Origin: Syntrophomonadaceae bacterium | GTDB taxonomy: Bacteria > Bacillota > Syntrophomonadia > Syntrophomonadales > Syntrophomonadaceae | DNA: 64,000 nucleotides | Direction of reading: 5' to 3' | Assembly (NCBI GenBank): GCA_028706315.1 | Contig: JAQWBP010000001.1 | Coordinates: 10,206-74,205 of the forward strand | Shown here: positions 4,706 through 35,834 of the stretch, in pieces | Layout of the letters: every line of letters starts with the position of its first letter | Numbering within the stretch: position 1 is the stretch's first letter | Made by a program: the position numbers and the translations under genes | Notes under the pieces: generated by a model | Told to the model about the DNA's origin: nothing | Database searches by the model: none | Seen by the model: the letters and a program-made list of their open reading frames with translations, nothing else

Positions 4706-5665
4706 ATGAAAATAGCTATAGATGCTATGGGGGGAGATTTTGCTCCAGGTGAAATAATAGCTGGTGCTATTAAATGGATAAAAGAAAATGAGGGGCAACT
4801 AATTCTAGTAGGCTTAGAAGAACAGATTCAAGCAGAACTAAGCAAATATAACTATAATTTTTCCCAGGTTAATATAGTGCCTGCCAGTGAAGTAATAGGG
4901 ATGGATGAATCGCCTGCAACTGCTATCCGCAGAAAGAAAAACTCATCCATAGTTGTAGCTACTAAGCTTGTGAAAGAACAGGTGGCAGATGCAGTTATAT
5001 CCTGTGGCAGTACTGGAGCACAAATGGCAGCTGCCCTGTTTATACTAGGACGGATGGAAGGAATTGAACGGCCGCCTATAGTTGCTGCCATACCAAATGC
5101 TGAAGGGAAAATATCTTTATTAATTGACGTAGGTGCTAATGTGGACTGTAAACCCAGGCAATTACTACAGTTTGCGCGTTTAGGAAAAGTATATGCGTCT
5201 ATGGTTATGGGTATTGACAATCCCCGAGTAGCTCTGTTAAATAATGGTGAAGAAGAAACAAAAGGAAATAATCTGAGTCTCGAAGCATATGCTTTGCTTA
5301 AGGATCAGACCGATCTCAATTTTATAGGTAATATTGAAGGAAGAGAGCTATTTAATAACGCAAGTGATGTTATTGTCTGTGATGGTTTTACAGGTAATAT
5401 TCTATTAAAAACTGTTGAAGGTATGGCATTTTTTATGGCACGTAGCATTACTGCAGAACTCGGTCGTACCCCGGACACTTTTAATAAATTTGACTATACC
5501 AAAACTGGTGGGGCTCCTTTGCTGGGGATCAATGGTATTAGTATAGTTTGCCATGGAAGTTCTAAGCGAGATGCTGTTTTTAATGCAATTAAGATTGCCC
5601 AAGATTGCTTTAATAAAAACATTGTTAAGTCACAGCAGAATGAACTAGTAAAGACTTTACAATAA
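4706..5665 (+). CDS. plsX: Phosphate acyltransferase PlsX
   Basis: A 319-residue protein starting MKIAIDAMGGDFAPGE, the PlsX hallmark. It makes acyl-phosphate from acyl-ACP for the PlsX-PlsY route to phosphatidic acid and is a peripheral membrane enzyme. The start ATG 4706 follows AAGGAGGA at good spacing; an upstream in-frame ATG (4682) is part of the hairpin region. The neighbour acpP encodes its donor carrier. The fapR, fabD and fabG genes that often sit here in Bacilli are absent from this run. Confidence 0.96.
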   Translation: MKIAIDAMGGDFAPGEIIAGAIKWIKENEGQLILVGLEEQIQAELSKYNYNFSQVNIVPASEVIGMDESPATAIRRKKNSSIVVATKLVKEQVADAVISCGSTGAQMAAALFILGRMEGIERPPIVAAIPNAEGKISLLIDVGANVDCKPRQLLQFARLGKVYASMVMGIDNPRVALLNNGEEETKGNNLSLEAYALLKDQTDLNFIGNIEGRELFNNASDVIVCDGFTGNILLKTVEGMAFFMARSITAELGRTPDTFNKFDYTKTGGAPLLGINGISIVCHGSSKRDAVFNAIKIAQDCFNKNIVKSQQNELVKTLQ

Positions 5666-5744
5666 CCACAATACGCTTTTTGATATTGCCTTTGTTATAG
5701 CAAACTATCTAAAATAAGTATAAAAGTAAAATGGAGGGATTAGA

Positions 5745-5993
5745 ATGCAGGAATTTTTTGAACTGGCCAAAAAAATATTAGCTGAACAGCTTGATATTGA
5801 TCCGACGGATATAGAAATGGATTCAACCTTTGAAGCATTAGATGCAGATTCTATCGATATAGTCGAAATGATAATGGCTCTTGAAGATACTTATGATGTA
5901 GAGTTTCCTGAAGAAGATTTAGAAGAGTATCCTAGCGTAAAATCGCTAATTGAAGCCCTGTATAAATATTTGCAGCAGGTGAAAAATGAATAA
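5745..5993 (+). CDS. acpP: Acyl carrier protein
   Basis: An acidic 82-residue protein with the phosphopantetheine attachment motif DADSID, in which Ser36 is the predicted carrier serine. Most AcpP proteins read DSL; the Ile here is a conservative change. It lies between plsX and rnc, the usual place for the housekeeping ACP, and its stop overlaps the rnc start by eight bases, suggesting translational coupling. Confidence 0.93.
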   Translation: MQEFFELAKKILAEQLDIDPTDIEMDSTFEALDADSIDIVEMIMALEDTYDVEFPEEDLEEYPSVKSLIEALYKYLQQVKNE

Positions 5994-6709: not shown

Positions 6710-7798
6710 ATGAGACATTATAATATACCAGTGTTTATTCCCCATATGGGATGCCCGTTTAGATGCATATTCTGTAACCAGAACAAAATAGCGTCACAGG
6801 CACAAATACCTGAAGTAAGCGATGTTGAACATATCGTTGAGCAGCATCTGGCTACTATACCCCGGTCAGAGACTGATATCGAAATAGCTTTTTTTGGTGG
6901 TAGCTTTACTGCTATTTCCAAGGATTTGCAGCAACAATACCTCGCAGCTGTAAACCCTTATTTAAAAAGTGGCAGAGTTCAAGGAATTAGACTTTCAACC
7001 CGACCTGATTATATTGATAAGGAAATACTTGATTTTTTGTTCAGCTGGGGAGTAACCGTAATTGAATTAGGTGTACAGTCAATGCATGAGGAGGTTTTAA
7101 AAGCATCGCGACGTGGTTACGAGACAGACGATGTTCTTAAAGCCTGTAAATTAATAAAAGAGTATGGATTTAAGCTGGGAATTCAGCTGATGATTGGCTT
7201 ACCCGGAGATAATTACTACCGGGACATGGAGACTACCGAACAGGTCTTATCAATTAATCCGGATATGATAAGGATTTATCCGACTCTGGTAGTGGCCAGC
7301 ACCTATCTTGCCACCCTCTATCATAATGGGGAATATATCCCGCTGGAACTAGACGAAGCTATAGAGATTAGCAAGGATATGCTGATACAGTTCCAAAAAA
7401 AAGATATTGATGTAATTCGCATCGGGCTTCAGCCTAGTGAGGATTTACGTAGTGAGGGTACGGTAATAGCAGGACCCTTTCACCCGAGTTTTGGAGAACT
7501 AGTTGAACAGGCGATTTTCAAGGACCAGGCTGAACTAGCCATAACTAGTTTCTTGGCTGGGGATAAAGCTTATAATGATATCGTATTATATAGCAACAAA
7601 CGCGATATTTCTAAGCTGATTGGTTGTCGAAAATCTAATATAGCTTATTTGGGAAAAAAGTTTGGCCTCACTAAGATTCAGGTAAAGACACTGGAAAAGC
7701 AGGAAAGAGACTGGGTGGGCATATCGGAACTGCCTGGTAACTATCCCCGGCAGGTTATAAGCAGGACAGACTATATAAATTTTGCTACAATAAAATAA
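6710..7798 (+). CDS. Radical SAM protein, Elp3-like
   Basis: A 362-residue radical SAM enzyme with the CxxxCxxC cluster at Cys15, Cys19 and Cys22 (GCPFRCIFC) and a following GGSFTAI glycine motif. It resembles the Elp3-type radical SAM domain but lacks the C-terminal acetyltransferase domain of Elp3. Homologues are often found between rnc and smc in clostridia. The substrate is unknown. It starts four bases after rnc ends and is closed by a strong hairpin, so it is probably the last gene of that transcript. Like all radical SAM enzymes it would release 5'-deoxyadenosine or use SAM reversibly. Confidence 0.85.
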   Translation: MRHYNIPVFIPHMGCPFRCIFCNQNKIASQAQIPEVSDVEHIVEQHLATIPRSETDIEIAFFGGSFTAISKDLQQQYLAAVNPYLKSGRVQGIRLSTRPDYIDKEILDFLFSWGVTVIELGVQSMHEEVLKASRRGYETDDVLKACKLIKEYGFKLGIQLMIGLPGDNYYRDMETTEQVLSINPDMIRIYPTLVVASTYLATLYHNGEYIPLELDEAIEISKDMLIQFQKKDIDVIRIGLQPSEDLRSEGTVIAGPFHPSFGELVEQAIFKDQAELAITSFLAGDKAYNDIVLYSNKRDISKLIGCRKSNIAYLGKKFGLTKIQVKTLEKQERDWVGISELPGNYPRQVISRTDYINFATIK

Positions 7799-9047: not shown

Positions 9048-12000
9048 TTGTATTTAAAAAGACTGGAGATCAAGGGCTTTAAATCCTTTGCAGATAGCAC
9101 GGAAATATGCCTTAGACCCGGGATAAATATTATTGTCGGACCAAATGGATGCGGAAAAAGCAATATAGTCGATGCTATTCGCTGGGTTATTGGCGAAACT
9201 AACATTCGGCATCTCAGGGGACAGAAAAGTGAAGATGTTATTTTCAATGGTACTGACAGCAAAAAGGCGCTGGGCATGGCATATGTAGAGATTACTGTTG
9301 ACAACAGTGATCGCATATTACCAGTTGATTATAGTGAAGTTAACCTGGTACGCAAGATATTTCGTTCTGGTGAAAGCGAATTTTATTTAAACAAATCTAA
9401 AGTGAGACTTAAAGATATTACCCAACTATTTATGGGTACCGGGCTAGGTAAAAAAGGATATTCAATTATTAGTCAGGGCGAACTAGAACAAGTACTGAAT
9501 GGATCATCTCTGGATAGGCGGCTAATTCTGGAAGAAGCTTCAGGGATAATAAAATATCGCCAACAGCGGGATGATACTACCAAAAGAATCCAGGCTACTG
9601 GCAATGATTTAATCAGGCTAAATGATATTATTGTAGAACTGGAAAAACGCCAGATAGAAGTGCGTAACAAGGCATTAAAAGCTCAGCAGTATTTAAAAAT
9701 TGCTGGCGAATTGGGAGAACTGGAAAAAAAGGTCCTTCTCGCGGAAATCACCAGACAGGAAAAGGATCTGTTAAACAAAACTAGTCTTCTAGAGTCCAAA
9801 AGAGATGAACTTAATAAGCAAATTGGAGAGCTTAAATTACACGAAGTGCGGTTAAAAAATGAAGAAGAAAATCTACAAAATAACCATAAAAGAGTTAATG
9901 AACTAGTTAATACCAGACACGAATATGAGACCCAGATTGCGTCTATGAATAGCGAAATCAGGCTTTGTGAGGAGCGGGTAAAAGGGAACCTGGAGCGTAT
10001 AAAAACAGCTGAAAGTGATGAAAAAAAATATACTGATATGCTCAAAAAGCTGGAACAGGAACTTAAACATAATATTACCGATTTTGAGGAACAGGAAAGT
10101 AGATATACAGACTTGCTTAACTCCTTTGAAAAAGTAAATGTTTCAGTTAAAGAATTAGAGCATACTATAGAGAGTTGCCAGGTATCTTTTGAAGATAAAA
10201 AAGGCGGGGTTTTCGAACAGATAAAATATGAAAGTGAAATAAAAGACGTTATACTCAAAAAAGATGAACAATTAAAAAAAGCCGAAGAAAAAAAAGAAAG
10301 ATTAAGTATACATATTGAAGCAATCAGAGAGGAATATAGCCAGCAGATTAAACAATGTAGAGAAATCGAAAAGCTTAATCAGGTTACTGAACAGGAAATA
10401 ATAAAAAACGAAGCACTACTCACCCAACTAAATGACCAAAAAACGGCATTACTAACTTCCTTAAAGACTTTTGAAGATAAAAATAAGGATTTAAATGATA
10501 AATATATACAGATAAAAACTAAACTTAGTTCTATCCAGGACATGCAGAAAAATATGGTAGGATATTCCCATGGAGTTAAGTCTATTCTGGGTATGGCCAG
10601 GAAGGGCAGGCTTCACGGTATCATGGGGCTAATGGGAGAAATAATAGATGTACCTAGTGGAATGGAGCTTGCCATAGATATTGCTGTAGGAAAAGCACTG
10701 GAAAATGTTGTGACTCAGACGGTTGAACAGGCCCGGCATGCTATCGAATATTTAAAATCGGGCCGACTGGGACGGGTGACTTTTTTACCTCTGGATATAC
10801 TCAAGGTGCAAACGACCCCTCGGGATGTTATACAAAAGGTGGGGCAGATAGATGGTGTTCTGGGTATAGGTGCAAAGCTTATAAATTACGACCAGAGGTT
10901 TACAAAAGCTGTAGAATACCTTTTAGGGCGAGTATTAGTAGTTGAGGATATGGAAAAAGGTATCCAGGTCTTTAAACTGATAAAGTACCCCTTCCGTATA
11001 GTAACCCTGGATGGAGAATTAATAAATGTTAGTGGTGCATTAACTGGTGGGCAGAAAGTATCTTATCAATCTAGTCCACTACAGCGCAGAGGTGAAGAAA
11101 AAAAGCTGTGCGAGATGCAGCATAAGTACGAGATAGCCATTGATAAAAATAGTAAAGAAACAGAAAACCTCCATGCTGAGTTAACCAAAATTGAGGAGAA
11201 TATAACGCAATGCCGGGAAAAACTTATGGAATCCAGGTTTGCATATGATATGCAGGCTAAACAAATAGAAACGATCAGAAATGAGGTAACTAATCGGCAA
11301 AAAGATAGGGATGAAAACCTGCAGCAGATATTAAGACTGAACGCCGAAATAGAAGAATTAGAGTTAGATATTGCCGAATTAAATCGCCAACAAAGGGAAA
11401 TGCAGAAGGATAATGAAGTGCTCAATGAAGAGTTAAACGGGCTTAAGGAAAAGATAGATGCTCAAAAACATGAGTATGCTCTACAAAATGAAAGGCGTCA
11501 CTCTTATAAAGAACAGTTGGATATAAAAAAGAGAGAACTGGATAGCATTAAAAAGAATGCAACTCAATTTGAACAGGTCAGAAATTCCTATCAGCAGTCC
11601 CAACAGGATGCGCAAAAGCTTAATTCAAGGCTGCAGAATGAAATTAATGTACAAAACAGCCGGGTGCAGGCTATTAATAATATAATAACTACTAAGGGCG
11701 ACGAACTTAAAATAACAAAAAGTGACATTATTGCTTTGCAGGAAAAGCAACGGCTGCATAAAGAAAACATTGAACGAATAAGCGAGGAGCTAATCCCGAT
11801 TAGGGGAAGTATCTCCGGGCTAGAAAATAATATAAGAAATATGGAAATAGCTATTGCCCGGACTGAAACTGAACTGGAAGGATTTAAAGCTAAATGGTGG
11901 GAAAAGTTTAATTCCGATGTACCCCAGGTTGAGGGGGAACTTATTATCGGTGCTAAACTTCGAGATAAGAAAAAGACTATTGCAATACTGCAGGGACAGA

Positions 12001-29177: not shown

Positions 29178-31094
29178 TTAAAAGTTTTTATACACTACCT
29201 GACCAGATAATTTTAGGTCATAACCCCCGAAGGCATTTACACGATTCTTGAATTCGCTGCTTTTTATAGTATTAAGCAGTATTTCCATCCGATTCTTATC
29301 AAGCATGTCTGGTAATATGCACAGGTCATATCTTTCTTCCGCAATCGGAATAAAATCTAAGTCAAGTGCCCTAGCACTTGCGTAAATACCCAGGCCGCAA
29401 TCACAGGCATCATTTTTAACAGCGGCAGCAACGGCTAGGTGAGTATATTCTTCACGGTTATAACCATTAATAGAAACTGAACTTATTTCATCTCGGCTCA
29501 AAAGATAATCGAAAAGGATGCGGGTTCCTGCACCTTTCTGCCGGTTTATAAACCGAACATCTTCACGGGTCACATTTTGCAGAGATTCTATTTCCAAAGG
29601 ATTACCTTTCTTTACTATAAGCCCCTGTTTACGTATAACAAGATTAATCAAGATATAGTTTTTCCCGGGGAGGTATTTTTCGAGATAACTTGTATTATAG
29701 TCTCCTGTTTCATAATCTAAGAGGTGAATACCGGAAAAATGTGTTTCAGCACGCCTTAGGGCCATAATACCTCCCATACTACCTACATTTGTGGAAACAA
29801 GCCGGATACCATATTGGCGTTGGAGAATATCGACTAAAAAGTCTACCGTCATGTCATGACTGCCAATCATTACTATAGTATTGTCAATAACATTGCGCGG
29901 ACGATTTAATTCTACTTTACACGGTTCTCCGGCCTCTAGACCTTCATTACCTCTTTTGATACAAAATGCTCCATCAGCTTTTACCAGGCTAGTAGTAATC
30001 CCGGCCCCGCGATTAAGAGGATAGGCTATATAGTGGTTATCAATTTTGGCGATGTTAGTATAAATATATTCATCAACCCCCATAGAAGAGGCAATTTTCC
30101 TGGATACATTGCATTCAAGAATATCAGCTTGCGGAGGAGTAATACCCTGTTTCATATATAAAACTGGACGCGCAAAAAGGTTAAAAATTAATCCCGCTGA
30201 TATCGGATAACCGGGTACCCCAATAACAGGCTTATTATTAATAACACCTAGTATAGCTGGCTTACCAGGCCTGGTAGCAATCCCATGTACAAGCACTTCA
30301 CCGAATTCTTCGATTATACTTGAAGTGTAATCTTCTCTTCCTGCCGAAGAACCAGAACAGATAATAATCATATCGGCCTTATCTTTAACCTCTTCAACAG
30401 CCTGGCGCAGAAGGTTTTTATCGTCTGGAACTATTTTATGCCGATATGTAACTGCACCCCATTCCTGACTTAGTCCGGACAGCATACGGCTGTTAGATTC
30501 AACAATTTCACCCGGGGACATATCGTCACTACCTTCATCAATGAGTTCTGTCCCGGTAGGGATAATAGCTACCAGCGGTTTTTTTACTACTTCTACAGAT
30601 GGAACTGCGGCTGTGCATAAAGAAGCAACCTCATACGGACCAATCTGGTATGAAGAAGGTATAACCATATCATGTGCTACCAGATCTTCACCAACGGACC
30701 GAATATGCTGCCACGGTACAGCAGCTTTTATTATTCTAGCGGCACTATCAATAAAGTTAACATCTTCAATCATTATAACTGCGTCAAATTCACGTGGCAC
30801 ATAGTCGCCAGTATCTACTTCGATAAAGGTTCCTGGGGGGAGTGTTACAGGGGTTATTTCACTCGCATCAAAGGTAGATGATGCCTTTACGGCTATACCA
30901 TCCATGGCGGCAGCTGCATAATGAGGAGACGATCTCCTGGCAAATACGGCTGAACGAGTGATCCTTCCCTGGCTTTCAAGTACATCTATGACTTCGCTTT
31001 CCATTTTAAAGTAGCCGCATTCTTTAAGCCGATCGATATATATTTGTCGGGCTTGCTCCAAGGGCATGTTTTCAATATAAATATTTCGCTGCAT
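29178..31094 (-). CDS. MoeA-type molybdopterin molybdenumtransferase fused to a PBP-like domain
   Basis: A 638-residue two-part protein. Residues 1 to about 395 are MoeA-like, with MDGIAV, PTGTELIDEG, SGSSAGREDYT and GVPGYPISAG. From about 405 to the end is a substrate-binding-protein-like fold (IVMIGSHDMTVDFLVDIL, then INRQKGAGTRILFDYLL) related to LysR effector-binding and molybdate/tungstate-binding-type domains. Such MoeA-PBP fusions occur in many anaerobes; the second half may sense or hand over the oxyanion, which is an inference. The start ATG 31094 follows AAGGAG. It is transcribed towards the exported FDH operon but separated from it by a terminator. Confidence 0.9.
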   Translation of the reverse strand: MQRNIYIENMPLEQARQIYIDRLKECGYFKMESEVIDVLESQGRITRSAVFARRSSPHYAAAAMDGIAVKASSTFDASEITPVTLPPGTFIEVDTGDYVPREFDAVIMIEDVNFIDSAARIIKAAVPWQHIRSVGEDLVAHDMVIPSSYQIGPYEVASLCTAAVPSVEVVKKPLVAIIPTGTELIDEGSDDMSPGEIVESNSRMLSGLSQEWGAVTYRHKIVPDDKNLLRQAVEEVKDKADMIIICSGSSAGREDYTSSIIEEFGEVLVHGIATRPGKPAILGVINNKPVIGVPGYPISAGLIFNLFARPVLYMKQGITPPQADILECNVSRKIASSMGVDEYIYTNIAKIDNHYIAYPLNRGAGITTSLVKADGAFCIKRGNEGLEAGEPCKVELNRPRNVIDNTIVMIGSHDMTVDFLVDILQRQYGIRLVSTNVGSMGGIMALRRAETHFSGIHLLDYETGDYNTSYLEKYLPGKNYILINLVIRKQGLIVKKGNPLEIESLQNVTREDVRFINRQKGAGTRILFDYLLSRDEISSVSINGYNREEYTHLAVAAAVKNDACDCGLGIYASARALDLDFIPIAEERYDLCILPDMLDKNRMEILLNTIKSSEFKNRVNAFGGYDLKLSGQVVYKNF

Positions 31095-31129
31095 GAACTT
31101 TTCTCCTTTTCTATACATAATCAATTACA

Positions 31130-31361
31130 TGATTCCCCTGCAAAAACCCCTTTCCCAATGCAACTTAATGAATACGTGGTTTAAAAATGGTGTTAAATCT
31201 TTTGTATTTGGCAATTATAAATTCTAAATTATAGCAGGGATAATCCATATTTAGCTCTTTTTTAACGTTAACTAAAGCCGCGTAATTCCTTGAAAAATCC
31301 GCGGATTCCGCGTTGAATTACTCAAGCTGGTGCATAATTAATACTTTTCGCAGTTGAATCA
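31130..31361. repeat. MITE-like element, copy 1
   Basis: This 232-bp non-coding unit recurs at 35604-35834 with about 97% identity, in the same orientation. Its ends are imperfect inverted repeats (TGATTCCCCTGCAAAAA at the left, matching the complement of the right end at about 14 of 17 positions). It is flanked by a direct repeat ATTACAT (31124-31130 and 31361-31367), of which TTACA lies fully outside the inverted repeats, as expected for a target-site duplication. No transposase frame is inside. A 12-bp palindrome AATCCGCGGATT lies in the right half. Confidence 0.85.
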
Positions 31362-31480
31362 TTACATCAATTATCTGTAAAAAGAAATGCTCATTTAACT
31401 CTACTGCGTTTTATCTATTTTACCTTATTTCGCCAATCAATAACAAAACTTATGCATTTTCCGTGTTTTTCCGCTCTAGT

Positions 31481-31508
31481 TTGACGCTGGTACTACGTAA
31501 AGTATAAT
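31481..31508 (+). promoter_or_regulatory. Promoter for the moeA pair
   Basis: TTGACG (31481-31486) and TATAAT (31503-31508) are spaced by 16 bp, 33 bp before the first plus-strand moeA. The 31362-31480 stretch between the MITE and this promoter shows no other recognisable feature. Confidence 0.75.
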
Positions 31509-31541
31509 AAAGTAAACATAACAGTAAATGAGGTGTATTAA

Positions 31542-32750
31542 ATGGGGGAGTTTCTCAAAGTTCTTAATTTTCAAGAGGCTCTCGAGCAGATTAGACAGAA
31601 TTTTCCCTCCTGTAAGGAAGAAAGGGTTCCTCTTACGGATGCTTGTGGTCGGGTACTGGCAGAAGAAATACTAAGTCCAGAAGACTTACCAGCTTTTAAT
31701 AGAACCGTAGTAGATGGTTATGCTGTTCATGCTGAAGATACATTTGGGTGTAGTGAATCTTTACCGGCCTTTTTAGATTTTGCTGGAGAAATCAAAATTG
31801 GATGTGAAGTAGATTTCTCATTAAGTAAGGGTCAGTGTTGCTGGATTCCCACCGGAGGTATGCTTCCACCCGGTAGTAACGGGGCAGTAATGGTTGAATA
31901 TACAGAAAAATTAGGCGACGATACTATTCTAGTTTACAGACCGGTAGGACCATGGGAGAACATAATGCAGAAAGGCGAGGATATCAGGAAGGGGCAGATA
32001 GTGTTTAATCGCGGGCAGCTTCTCCGACCTCAGGATATAGGCCTTTTAGCCTCACTGGGCATTTGTGAAGTAGATGTCTTAAAACCTTACCATACCGGTA
32101 TAATATCAACCGGAGATGAAATCATTCCGGTCGATCAGACTCCCATGGTTGGACAGGTAAGAGATGTAAACTCATTTTCATTGGCAGCGGCGGTAAAGAA
32201 CTGTCGTAGTATTCCACAAGTTTACCCGATTATAAAAGATGATTTTGCTATTCTCAAGGCAGAAGTTGCTACTGCCATTCAGCAGAATGATATTGTTATA
32301 ATGTCAGGCGGTAGTTCTGTGGGAATAATGGATGTAACGCTGGATGTACTCCTTGACTTTGCGGATGCTAAACTGCTTTTTCATGGTATAGCTGTTAAGC
32401 CAGGCAAGCCAACCATGGCAGTTAAAATAGGTGACAAGCTGGTTATTGGCTTACCTGGACATCCTGTTTCGGCCCTGATGATGTTTTATATAGTATGTGC
32501 GCCCGCACTTAAATTAAGTCCTCTACCTGTAATTAAAGCCCAACTAACCGAAAACATTGCCTCACAGGCCGGGCGTGATGACTTTATACCTGTACAATTA
32601 TATCGGGAGGGTAACGAGTGGGCAGCTAGGCCCTTGCTAGGAAAATCAGGACTCATGAGTATCCTCTCTATGGCTGATGGTTATATACATATTGCTTATG
32701 AAAAACAAGGGCTCAAAAAGGGTGCCTCAGTAGAAGTTTACTGTTTTTAA
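31542..32750 (+). CDS. moeA: Molybdopterin molybdenumtransferase MoeA (first of two adjacent copies)
   Basis: A 402-residue MoeA with the canonical motifs TVDGYAV-type (VVDGYAVHA), PTGGMLPPGSNGAVMVE, STGDEII, MSGGSSVG and GLPGHPVSA. It inserts molybdate or tungstate into adenylylated molybdopterin. The N-terminus (FQEALEQIRQNF) and domain order are standard. It heads a two-gene unit with a second, more divergent MoeA, 55 bp apart. Its good fit to the consensus suggests it is the main enzyme for one metal. Confidence 0.94.
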   Translation: MGEFLKVLNFQEALEQIRQNFPSCKEERVPLTDACGRVLAEEILSPEDLPAFNRTVVDGYAVHAEDTFGCSESLPAFLDFAGEIKIGCEVDFSLSKGQCCWIPTGGMLPPGSNGAVMVEYTEKLGDDTILVYRPVGPWENIMQKGEDIRKGQIVFNRGQLLRPQDIGLLASLGICEVDVLKPYHTGIISTGDEIIPVDQTPMVGQVRDVNSFSLAAAVKNCRSIPQVYPIIKDDFAILKAEVATAIQQNDIVIMSGGSSVGIMDVTLDVLLDFADAKLLFHGIAVKPGKPTMAVKIGDKLVIGLPGHPVSALMMFYIVCAPALKLSPLPVIKAQLTENIASQAGRDDFIPVQLYREGNEWAARPLLGKSGLMSILSMADGYIHIAYEKQGLKKGASVEVYCF

Positions 32751-32805
32751 GTAACAAGGGGATTAGCCACGGAATCATTAGTTTAGAAAAGAGGATGAAA
32801 TAGCA

Positions 32806-34005
32806 ATGGAGAGAATCAGCCTGACTCTGGAAACAGCTATCAGCCTTTGTTTTGAAGATGTATCAGAAATGGAAAAGGAAGAAATAACGATAGACCAGGC
32901 GACGGGCCGGGTTGGTGCTAGAGATGTATTTGCTGAGATTAATGTTCCGAGCTTTAAAAGGTCGAGAGTCGATGGGTATGCCATTAGCAGTTCTGATATG
33001 GATAAAATAAGAGTTAAGGATAAAGTTACCCTCGAAGTACAGGAAGTAATTCCCGCAGGTTGGGACCATCAGGTGGTAATGATGCCAGGTAAATGTTTGC
33101 GGGTAATGACAGGCGCAGTTTTACCTGTAGCAGCAGCAGTTATAAAGCAGGAGGAGATCAAAACCTTAGGAGAACAAATCATAATTGAGAAACCGGTTAG
33201 CGACAGTATTAATATCGAACTTCCTGGTGCTGTTATTAATAGAGGTGAAAGGCTATTATTCGCAGGTCAGGAAATTTACTCAAACCAGGTGGAGAAACTA
33301 TCCTCGACCGGGCTTTCCAGAGTAGTAGCTTATGTTCTACCCAGGGTTTATATCATCAATACTGGAAGTGAGCTGGTTTTACCAGGCACTCCGCTTAAAA
33401 ATGGTCAAATATACCATAGCAACCGTAGTTTCCTATTAAGTAAGGTTAAAGAAACTGGTTGTGCAGCAGAAGTCGGAAGTCCAGATACTAAAGATGAAAT
33501 GGATGTTATTATTGGGGAAATTGAGCAGGGGATCAAATCATCTGATATGGTATTAATTAGCGGAGGAACGGCAGAAGGTGATTATGACCTGGTTATTTCA
33601 GCTCTTAAGCATTTCGATGCAAGAATAATATTTAGTAGCCTGGAAACAAGACCAGGGAAAAATGTTACTGCTGCAGTTATTGATGGTAAGTTGGTCTTTA
33701 ATTTACCAGGTAACCCTCACGCCGCGGGACTCCTTTTTGATGTACTGGTAAGACCAGTTCTCGATAAATTAAAAGGCATAAAAGAGCCCGGGCATAACCG
33801 AGTTAATATCAGATTGAGCCAGGATATACCGCGTATATTAAATATACGCAGTCTCATAAGGGCTGAACTTATTGAAAAAAATGCTGCTTTTTTTGCCCGG
33901 CCCTTACGTAAAAAAGAAAAATACACTAGTATCAGGCCAATTATACTTGATATCAAGCCAGGTAAGGGTAAACAGGGTGATATTGTCAAAGGCATTATTC
34001 TTTAG
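32806..34005 (+). CDS. Second, divergent MoeA-family protein
   Basis: A 399-residue MoeA-like protein. It keeps VDGYAI, MTGAVLP, NTGSELV, SGGTAEGDYD and NLPGNPHAAG, but differs from the gene before it at several motif positions (SGGTAEG for SGGSSVG, LPGNPHA for LPGHPVS). Pairs of MoeA paralogues are known from organisms that use both Mo and W, and separate metal preferences are a reasonable guess here. The ribosome binding site is GAGGATGAAA. The gene runs towards the convergent ATPase gene and no clear terminator is visible in the 50-bp gap. Confidence 0.88.
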   Translation: MERISLTLETAISLCFEDVSEMEKEEITIDQATGRVGARDVFAEINVPSFKRSRVDGYAISSSDMDKIRVKDKVTLEVQEVIPAGWDHQVVMMPGKCLRVMTGAVLPVAAAVIKQEEIKTLGEQIIIEKPVSDSINIELPGAVINRGERLLFAGQEIYSNQVEKLSSTGLSRVVAYVLPRVYIINTGSELVLPGTPLKNGQIYHSNRSFLLSKVKETGCAAEVGSPDTKDEMDVIIGEIEQGIKSSDMVLISGGTAEGDYDLVISALKHFDARIIFSSLETRPGKNVTAAVIDGKLVFNLPGNPHAAGLLFDVLVRPVLDKLKGIKEPGHNRVNIRLSQDIPRILNIRSLIRAELIEKNAAFFARPLRKKEKYTSIRPIILDIKPGKGKQGDIVKGIIL

Positions 34006-34055
34006 ATAAAGAATTGTTAATTATCGCGAAAACCCCGAAACTTTTTCAGGCGAAA

Positions 34056-35162
34056 TTATATAGGGGAATCAAGCTTTTGTTTTAAAGTTTCTAATAAGTT
34101 TTCGCGCAGTTGGCCTAAAGCTTCAAAATCCATGGCGTCTACATAATAACTTTCTAGTTCATCGTGATATTGGTGAGCTGTTTTTATTAATGATACTGCT
34201 GCAAGCAGGCCTGATTTTACTCGCTCCTCTGCTGATGTGATAGATTTCTGATAAGGTTCTATAGAGGCTTTTTCAATAAACTGGTTAAAGTCGAGGAAAC
34301 GTTTGTTTTTTCTCGAGGTTAACTGTTCTGCATAATTAACAATAGTTGTTGAACAGTTAACGAGTGCTAACCTGGTTTCAGGTAATAAAATTATATCGAT
34401 ATAGTTTGGATCAAAGGGATTATGAAAGACTTCAACATAAATTCCGCGCAAACTGCTGATTTGTAGTATGTGGTCAAATAAACTTTTGACTCCGGTTCCA
34501 GGACTCCCCTGGATTGCAAACAGGGAGTAATCTGAGTCAATAATACTTTTAACTTTGGTCACAATACCAGCTGGTGTTATAGCCCCGGCAAAAAGGTGAC
34601 GTGGTTTTTTATATGTTGGTGTGCAGTTAGACAAAAAATCTTCGGCCAGGGCAAGAATATTACGGTTTACAGCAGGAATATCGATAGCTCTGGAGTAATA
34701 AGATTCCCATTCCTGGAAAGCCAGGCTAGTTTCCTTAAGCCGTCCGTAAGCCTTATTAAAACACCAGGAAACGTTTTCACTAAGTTTAATAATCTCTTGG
34801 CGTACCAGTCTTAGTTTCTCCCGATCCAGAAACTGGCCTAAATTAATTATTTCATCAACTGCACCAGGAAAACGGGGATCGACAATATGCGGCGCAGTTC
34901 CATCCAGAATACATACTTTCTGTTGACCAATTACTATTCCATCTAGTGAATCAGGATCTGAAGAGCACCAGTGGTATTCAAGGTCAAACTGTTCGCGCTC
35001 GAAATATTCACCCATGTGTTTCATAAAAAATGATTTACCGACTCCTGGACCACCTTTAAGAATTATCTTATAATCGGTTTCAGGGTAAGCCATGTAATCA
35101 TACAGGGAGTAAAAACCGTAACAGGTATTACCTCCTGGGAACAGGTGTGTTATTTTGCCCAT
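34056..35162 (-). CDS. Two-domain P-loop ATPase of unknown function (PRK06851-like)
   Basis: A 368-residue protein I place in a poorly described ATPase family of spore-forming Firmicutes. The first half has a perfect Walker A, GGPGVGKS, at residues 37-44. The second half repeats the fold with GSPGTGVKS, where an extra valine separates the glycine from VKS, so the second site departs from the normal eight-residue P-loop and may not bind nucleotide. The start ATG 35162 follows AGGAGGT; a longer reading to 35201 lacks a ribosome binding site. Its location among Mo-cofactor genes between two MITE copies is noted, with no function claimed. Confidence 0.75.
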   Translation of the reverse strand: MGKITHLFPGGNTCYGFYSLYDYMAYPETDYKIILKGGPGVGKSFFMKHMGEYFEREQFDLEYHWCSSDPDSLDGIVIGQQKVCILDGTAPHIVDPRFPGAVDEIINLGQFLDREKLRLVRQEIIKLSENVSWCFNKAYGRLKETSLAFQEWESYYSRAIDIPAVNRNILALAEDFLSNCTPTYKKPRHLFAGAITPAGIVTKVKSIIDSDYSLFAIQGSPGTGVKSLFDHILQISSLRGIYVEVFHNPFDPNYIDIILLPETRLALVNCSTTIVNYAEQLTSRKNKRFLDFNQFIEKASIEPYQKSITSAEERVKSGLLAAVSLIKTAHQYHDELESYYVDAMDFEALGQLRENLLETLKQKLDSPI

Positions 35163-35304
35163 TTCAACTACCTCCTGAATAAGCAAGCCTAATGTCTTCA
35201 CTTATGTATATGTATTTGTTAGCCGCTTTCTACCAGGAATAACATGGCAATAGTACACTGGCATCAGCCTGGTTAAGACTTGCACGGGTAGGGTGAAAAT
35301 ATAT

Positions 35305-35484
35305 TTACGATTGGGGCTTACTATTATATCCAGCCTGATCAAGCTGGGTTTTTACCTGCCCTTTAATCTCGTCAATAAATAACCGATACAGCTGTTTCTG
35401 TTCTTCAGTTTCATCCGCAGTAAGTCCGGTGGATTTCTTTTTACTGGCCAGTTCATTAATTCGATCTAATTGTTCTTGTTTCAT
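35305..35484 (-). CDS. Small DUF896/UPF0291 (YnzC-like) protein
   Basis: A 59-residue frame on the minus strand begins MKQEQLDRINELASKKKSTG, followed by LTADETEEQKQLYRLF. This matches the small, helical DUF896 family (a pattern of RINELA, a basic run, GLT, then E..EQ). The start ATG 35484 has AAAGGAGC upstream. The family is common in Firmicutes and the B. subtilis members have no firmly assigned role. The gene is easily missed because of its size. It sits just upstream of, and in line with, the P-loop ATPase gene. Confidence 0.85.
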   Translation of the reverse strand: MKQEQLDRINELASKKKSTGLTADETEEQKQLYRLFIDEIKGQVKTQLDQAGYNSKPQS

Positions 35485-35603
35485 TACCTTGCTCCTTTAT
35501 ATAGTTTGTAGGGTACTAACTAAGCTTATAAATTACTTGTATGAAATTACTATTATAGTATACATCTTGTCGAATCATGAAATCATCCGTTAAAAACTAG
35601 TAT

Positions 35604-35834
35604 TGATTCCCCTGCAAAAACCCCTTTCCCAATGCAACTTAATGAATACGTGGTTTTAAAATGGTGTTAAATCTTTTGTATTTGGCAATTATAAATTCTA
35701 AATTATAGCAGGGATAATCCATATTTCGCTCTTTTTTAACGTTAACTAAAGCCGCGTAATTCCTTGGAAATCTGCGGATTCCGCGTTGAATTACTCAAGC
35801 TGGTGCATAATTAATACTTTTCGCAGTGGAATCA
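35604..35834. repeat. MITE-like element, copy 2
   Basis: The second copy of the 31130-31361 element, about 97% identical with roughly six differences and one single-base gap. Its terminal inverted repeats are better kept than in copy 1 (15 of 17 positions: TGATTCCCCTGCAAAAA against TGATTCCACTGCGAAAA). The flanks (AGTAT on the left, TTATT on the right) show no target-site duplication. It fills most of the 451-bp gap before recJ; 35485-35603 and 35835-35935 hold only AT-rich sequence and the recJ ribosome binding site. Confidence 0.82.

Follow-up and report, generated by a model that had tools for sequence, protein, structure and literature searches.

Two MITE copies beside molybdenum-cofactor genes in a Syntrophomonadaceae bacterium, and a likely IS1182-like parent in its relatives

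Two repeat units among molybdenum-cofactor genes

The window, a stretch of 64,000 nucleotides from a Syntrophomonadaceae bacterium, contains two non-coding repeat units that enclose two moeA genes, a DUF896 gene and an ATPase-like gene whose only Pfam matches are weak, a gene content that agrees with the description in an earlier note made from the sequence alone. The gene to the left of the first unit, on the minus strand at 29178-31094, joins moeA to a periplasmic-binding-protein-like domain (PF12727; moeA-PBP in what follows), so that copy 1 lies between two molybdenum-cofactor genes. On its own account, moeA-PBP adjoins a formate-dehydrogenase-like gene, and this arrangement is conserved in the family.

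The two units lie in direct orientation and match in 226 of 232 aligned columns (97.4% identity). Both have 34-35% GC and their longest stop-free stretch is 50-51 codons. They end in imperfect 17-bp terminal inverted repeats (TIRs), which match at 14 of 17 positions in copy 1 and at 15 of 17 in copy 2. With up to three mismatches allowed, the TIR word is found in the window at these four ends only (0.5 occurrences expected). Coordinates, identity (given as about 97%), orientation, lack of coding capacity and TIR matches were all reproduced as the earlier note had reported them. Copy 1 has TTACA on each side, a 5-bp target duplication, and copy 2 has no exact duplication, the GTAT on its left and the TTAT on its right agreeing at three of four positions, a point absent from the earlier note. 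The features, described as copies of a miniature inverted-repeat element (MITE), are these:

31130..31361, plus strand: first MITE copy, 232 bp, without coding capacity; identity to copy 2 97.4%, with 10 copies of full length genome-wide
31130..31146, plus strand: left TIR of copy 1, TGATTCCCCTGCAAAAA
31345..31361, minus strand: right TIR of copy 1, TGATTCAACTGCGAAAA
31125..31129, no strand: flanking target duplication TTACA, left of copy 1
31362..31366, no strand: flanking target duplication TTACA, right of copy 1
35604..35834, plus strand: MITE copy 2, 231 bp, non-coding, duplication not exact (GTAT/TTAT)
35604..35620, plus strand: left TIR of copy 2, TGATTCCCCTGCAAAAA
35818..35834, minus strand: right TIR of copy 2, TGATTCCACTGCGAAAA

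Upstream of moeA-PBP, some 35 bp separate copy 1 from the likely start codon (an ATG on the minus strand at about 31094). The insertion leaves intact a good promoter-like site (TTGACG-16-TATAAT, 31481-31508) that faces the rightward moeA. Between this site and moeA-PBP, copy 1 carries on its minus strand a terminator-like hairpin (31312-31300), recognised, like the promoter-like site, by its match to the consensus. This predicted hairpin could affect leftward transcription. Such a hairpin in a unit that is repeated and intergenic might also speak for a structured non-coding RNA or a conserved regulatory element, a reading that we consider most improbable. The unit folds little better than its shuffles (z -1.36 and -1.42 for the two strands), copies are found in both orientations and with target duplications, and Rfam gave no match over either unit, a match to a known structured RNA family being one of the outcomes that the earlier note had set against its own proposal.

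Copies in the genome and gene order in relatives

The assembly of this bacterium is a 2.52-Mb draft in 94 contigs, in which copies were counted by sequence search. Ten full-length copies of 228-232 bp, 94-100% identical, are spread over many contigs, some of them in opposite orientation; two more copies have internal deletions, and about ten others are fragments. The unit is thus not confined to the two sites in the window. Several copies (flanks of loci L004, L007, L008 and L009) lie in AT-rich, near-identical targets of the form AATTNAAAATTNAAAATT, which suggests a target preference. If one mismatch is allowed, the genome contains the end motif TGATTCNNCTGCRAAAA 79 times, and the reversed-pattern control gave 0 here as in every other genome searched. 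Many of these ends delimit other families, about 273 bp long and in one case 367 bp, that resemble the 232-bp element at the ends only. This second MITE family has a GC-rich interior within a nested inverted repeat (ATGCATAAATAT...ATATTTATGCAT), and similar interiors are also present in relatives (L068, L151). Its copies in the genome are:

L031, 1245-1517: copy of the ~273-bp family
L032, 1245-1517: copy of the ~273-bp family
L036, 1501-1772: copy of the ~273-bp family
L041, 127-399: copy of the ~273-bp family
L042, 1501-1773: copy of the ~273-bp family
L047, 1501-1867: the 367-bp copy

Our set of TIR pairs from this genome and related ones comprises 45 distinct cases. In 35 of them at least 4 bp of the target are duplicated, where about 1.9 would be expected with left and right flanks paired at random, so that the signature of insertion is far above chance. 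The duplication is of exactly 4 bp in 28 pairs, of 5 bp in four, of 6 bp in two and of 10 bp in one. The earlier note had proposed a duplication of 5 bp (up to 7); the TTACA that flanks copy 1 stands, but the usual length is 4 bp, and with its 5 bp copy 1 belongs to a minority.

The genes around the two copies follow an order that is conserved in 14 relatives, as far as their contigs reach: moeA-PBP, moeA, (second moeA), ATPase, (DUF896), recJ, relA, the bracketed genes being sometimes missing (in one relative, G008, the first moeA is reduced to a fragment). No end motif was found within the cluster from moeA-PBP to recJ in 13 of the 14. In the fourteenth, G006, three intergenic gaps of the moeA-recJ cluster are each occupied by a different element (L151, about 5654-5790, 7144-7286 and 9846-10001) with ends of the same type and an interior unlike that of the window unit. 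One of these elements sits in the same gap as copy 1; since length, interior and duplications are unlike those of copy 1, the G006 elements are taken as separate insertions. The presence of three elements in one cluster hints at a preference for this AT-rich region, or simply at a high copy number.

The conserved order and the lack of any such element in 13 of 14 relatives indicate that both copies are separate, later insertions. To judge from this comparison of sequences, the ancestor of the family already had this gene order and the segment still has its old place, both copies having arrived later. Conservation of the unit at orthologous positions, which the earlier note had named as an argument against a mobile element, was not found, the unit being absent from the orthologous sites of the relatives. 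These observations bear as well on the idea of a composite transposon, in which the 4.7-kb moeA/ATPase/DUF896 segment would travel in one piece with the pair. The enclosure of the segment by two direct copies is what one would expect of such a structure, but the same order from moeA-PBP to recJ in 14 relatives, 13 of them without the element, the target duplication that copy 1 has of its own, and the different outer flanks (TTACA to the left of copy 1 versus TTATT to the right of copy 2) make it hardly credible. The earlier suggestion of a mobile molybdenum-cofactor segment is not supported, given the ancestral place of the segment in the family, and is removed. As with any pair of direct repeats this similar (97%), recombination between them could in principle delete the segment, with no sign of it here.

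The likely parent element, not detected in this genome

The shared ends led to a 1459-bp element with a truncated transposase in the genome G004, whose ends match the window element over 22 and 18 bp; this copy has no clear target duplication. With its protein as query, four closely similar IS copies and a broken one were reached in the MAG Syntrophomonas sp. DTU019 (G024). The intact IS is 1906 bp long with ends TGATTCCACTGCAAAAA. Three copies could be read end to end, one of them with one end base changed; two have target duplications, AGAA and ACCT, and the third has only 3 bp. Six copies of a related element, with ends TGATGTCACTGC, are present in G020, two of them with duplications (TTAT and ACAA, read from the sequence by eye). 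Homologues in other Bacillota, at about 46% identity, have TGATTYCACTGCA ends as well, and two of these (L220, L223) appear, also by eye, to have 4-bp duplications.

The transposase has the domains DUF772 and DDE_Tnp_1_6, both above the Pfam cut-offs. Its best NCBIfam match is NF033551 (IS1182), at 1e-40 (the G024 protein) and 7e-49 in alignments that span almost the entire model, with scores of 140 and 167 bits that fall below the curated cut-off of 270, and for this reason we call the element IS1182-like. The protein also has an R-(3)-E-(6)-K spacing (RAGIEATNSALK), which we take to be typical of IS4/IS1182-type DDE transposases. On sequence grounds the 1906-bp IS of Syntrophomonas sp. DTU019 is the likely parent of the MITE; the earlier note had not recognised the IS family. 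This IS and the MITE have only about 17-22 terminal bases in common, so that simple internal deletion is no more than a possible route of descent.

In the bacterium itself, searches with both the truncated protein (G004) and the full-length one found no homologue of this transposase. Its three DUF772 matches (L120-L122), one long open protein and two short or broken ones, were rejected as parent, the long one having different ends of the GAGACTTTTGCA type. As the genome is a draft of 94 contigs, a collapsed parent copy could be missing from it. Among 54 genomes of the family, the exact end motif is found in 26 and a matching transposase in four. One of the former, G003, is a single contig with 91 exact end matches and no IS1182-like transposase homologue. 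A collapsed copy hidden in an assembly gap is possible for the draft genomes and less so for G003.

The lack of a detected IS1182-like homologue in most MITE-rich genomes, including G003, could also mean that the MITE is moved by a different transposase with similar ends. We regard this as quite unlikely, since ends and duplication length both fit IS1182-like elements and, among the loci examined and the places listed, there was no TIR pair at IS-like distance with another transposase. That the units are MITEs is supported by the number of copies, by their target duplications and by the IS with matching ends that relatives carry; these findings also argue strongly that, as the earlier note had held, the units were moved by a transposase encoded elsewhere.

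We consider it highly probable (about 0.9) that the units are independent insertions of a non-autonomous MITE, moved in trans by the IS1182-like transposase of an IS present earlier in the lineage. Having no gene, the MITE would keep only the ends recognised by the IS1182-like DDE transposase (TGATTCNNCTGCRAAAA), and would have been moved in trans while the lineage still contained a full-length IS with those ends. It would have inserted independently into two divergent intergenic regions, with duplication of 4 (sometimes 5) bp of AT-rich target, and the parent IS would later have been lost from the lineage and survived in relatives. The window units accordingly look like orphaned MITEs whose likely parent IS survives in relatives, and that MITEs outlast their partner is the simplest reading. 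The 26 genomes with the ends versus the four with the transposase are a tidy example of MITEs persisting where the partner is not found. Only tentatively, and with considerable doubt, would we extend this to the family as numerous lineages of MITEs, alike in their end sequence and unrelated in their interiors, mostly in genomes without a detectable partner transposase, that are either outliving their IS or still being moved by an unrecognised transposase.

Comparison with known systems

The two repeats are ordinary MITE copies, a new member of an already known kind of element; a search of the literature for Syntrophomonas MITEs or IS found nothing relevant. Within the IS1182 family, the likely parent has NF033551 as its best model match together with DUF772 and DDE_Tnp_1_6, although its transposase falls below the curated cut-off. 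For some members of the family, IS1272 among them, the targets are palindromes, entered by an inverted-repeat-replacing route (PMC5678879), whereas the group of the likely parent duplicates 4 bp.

MITEs commonly have only their ends in common with the partner (PMC3852290). Those of ISMac2, an IS1182-family element of Methanosarcina acetivorans, are 160 bp long, with 14 copies, 4-bp direct repeats and a listed IR length of 26 (PMC3852290). By their description they are, like the window MITE, short and present in many copies, with 4-bp direct repeats and with ends common to an element of the IS1182 family or, for the window MITE, an IS1182-like one; they differ in their archaeal host and in having an autonomous partner named in that host. 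In archaea, 19 MITE-like repeats have been reported without a resident autonomous partner, IS loss being among the proposed reasons (PMC3852290). These resemble the window MITE in their TIRs, their multiple copies and the lack of a partner found in the genome, but for the window MITE there is a candidate partner in related genera.
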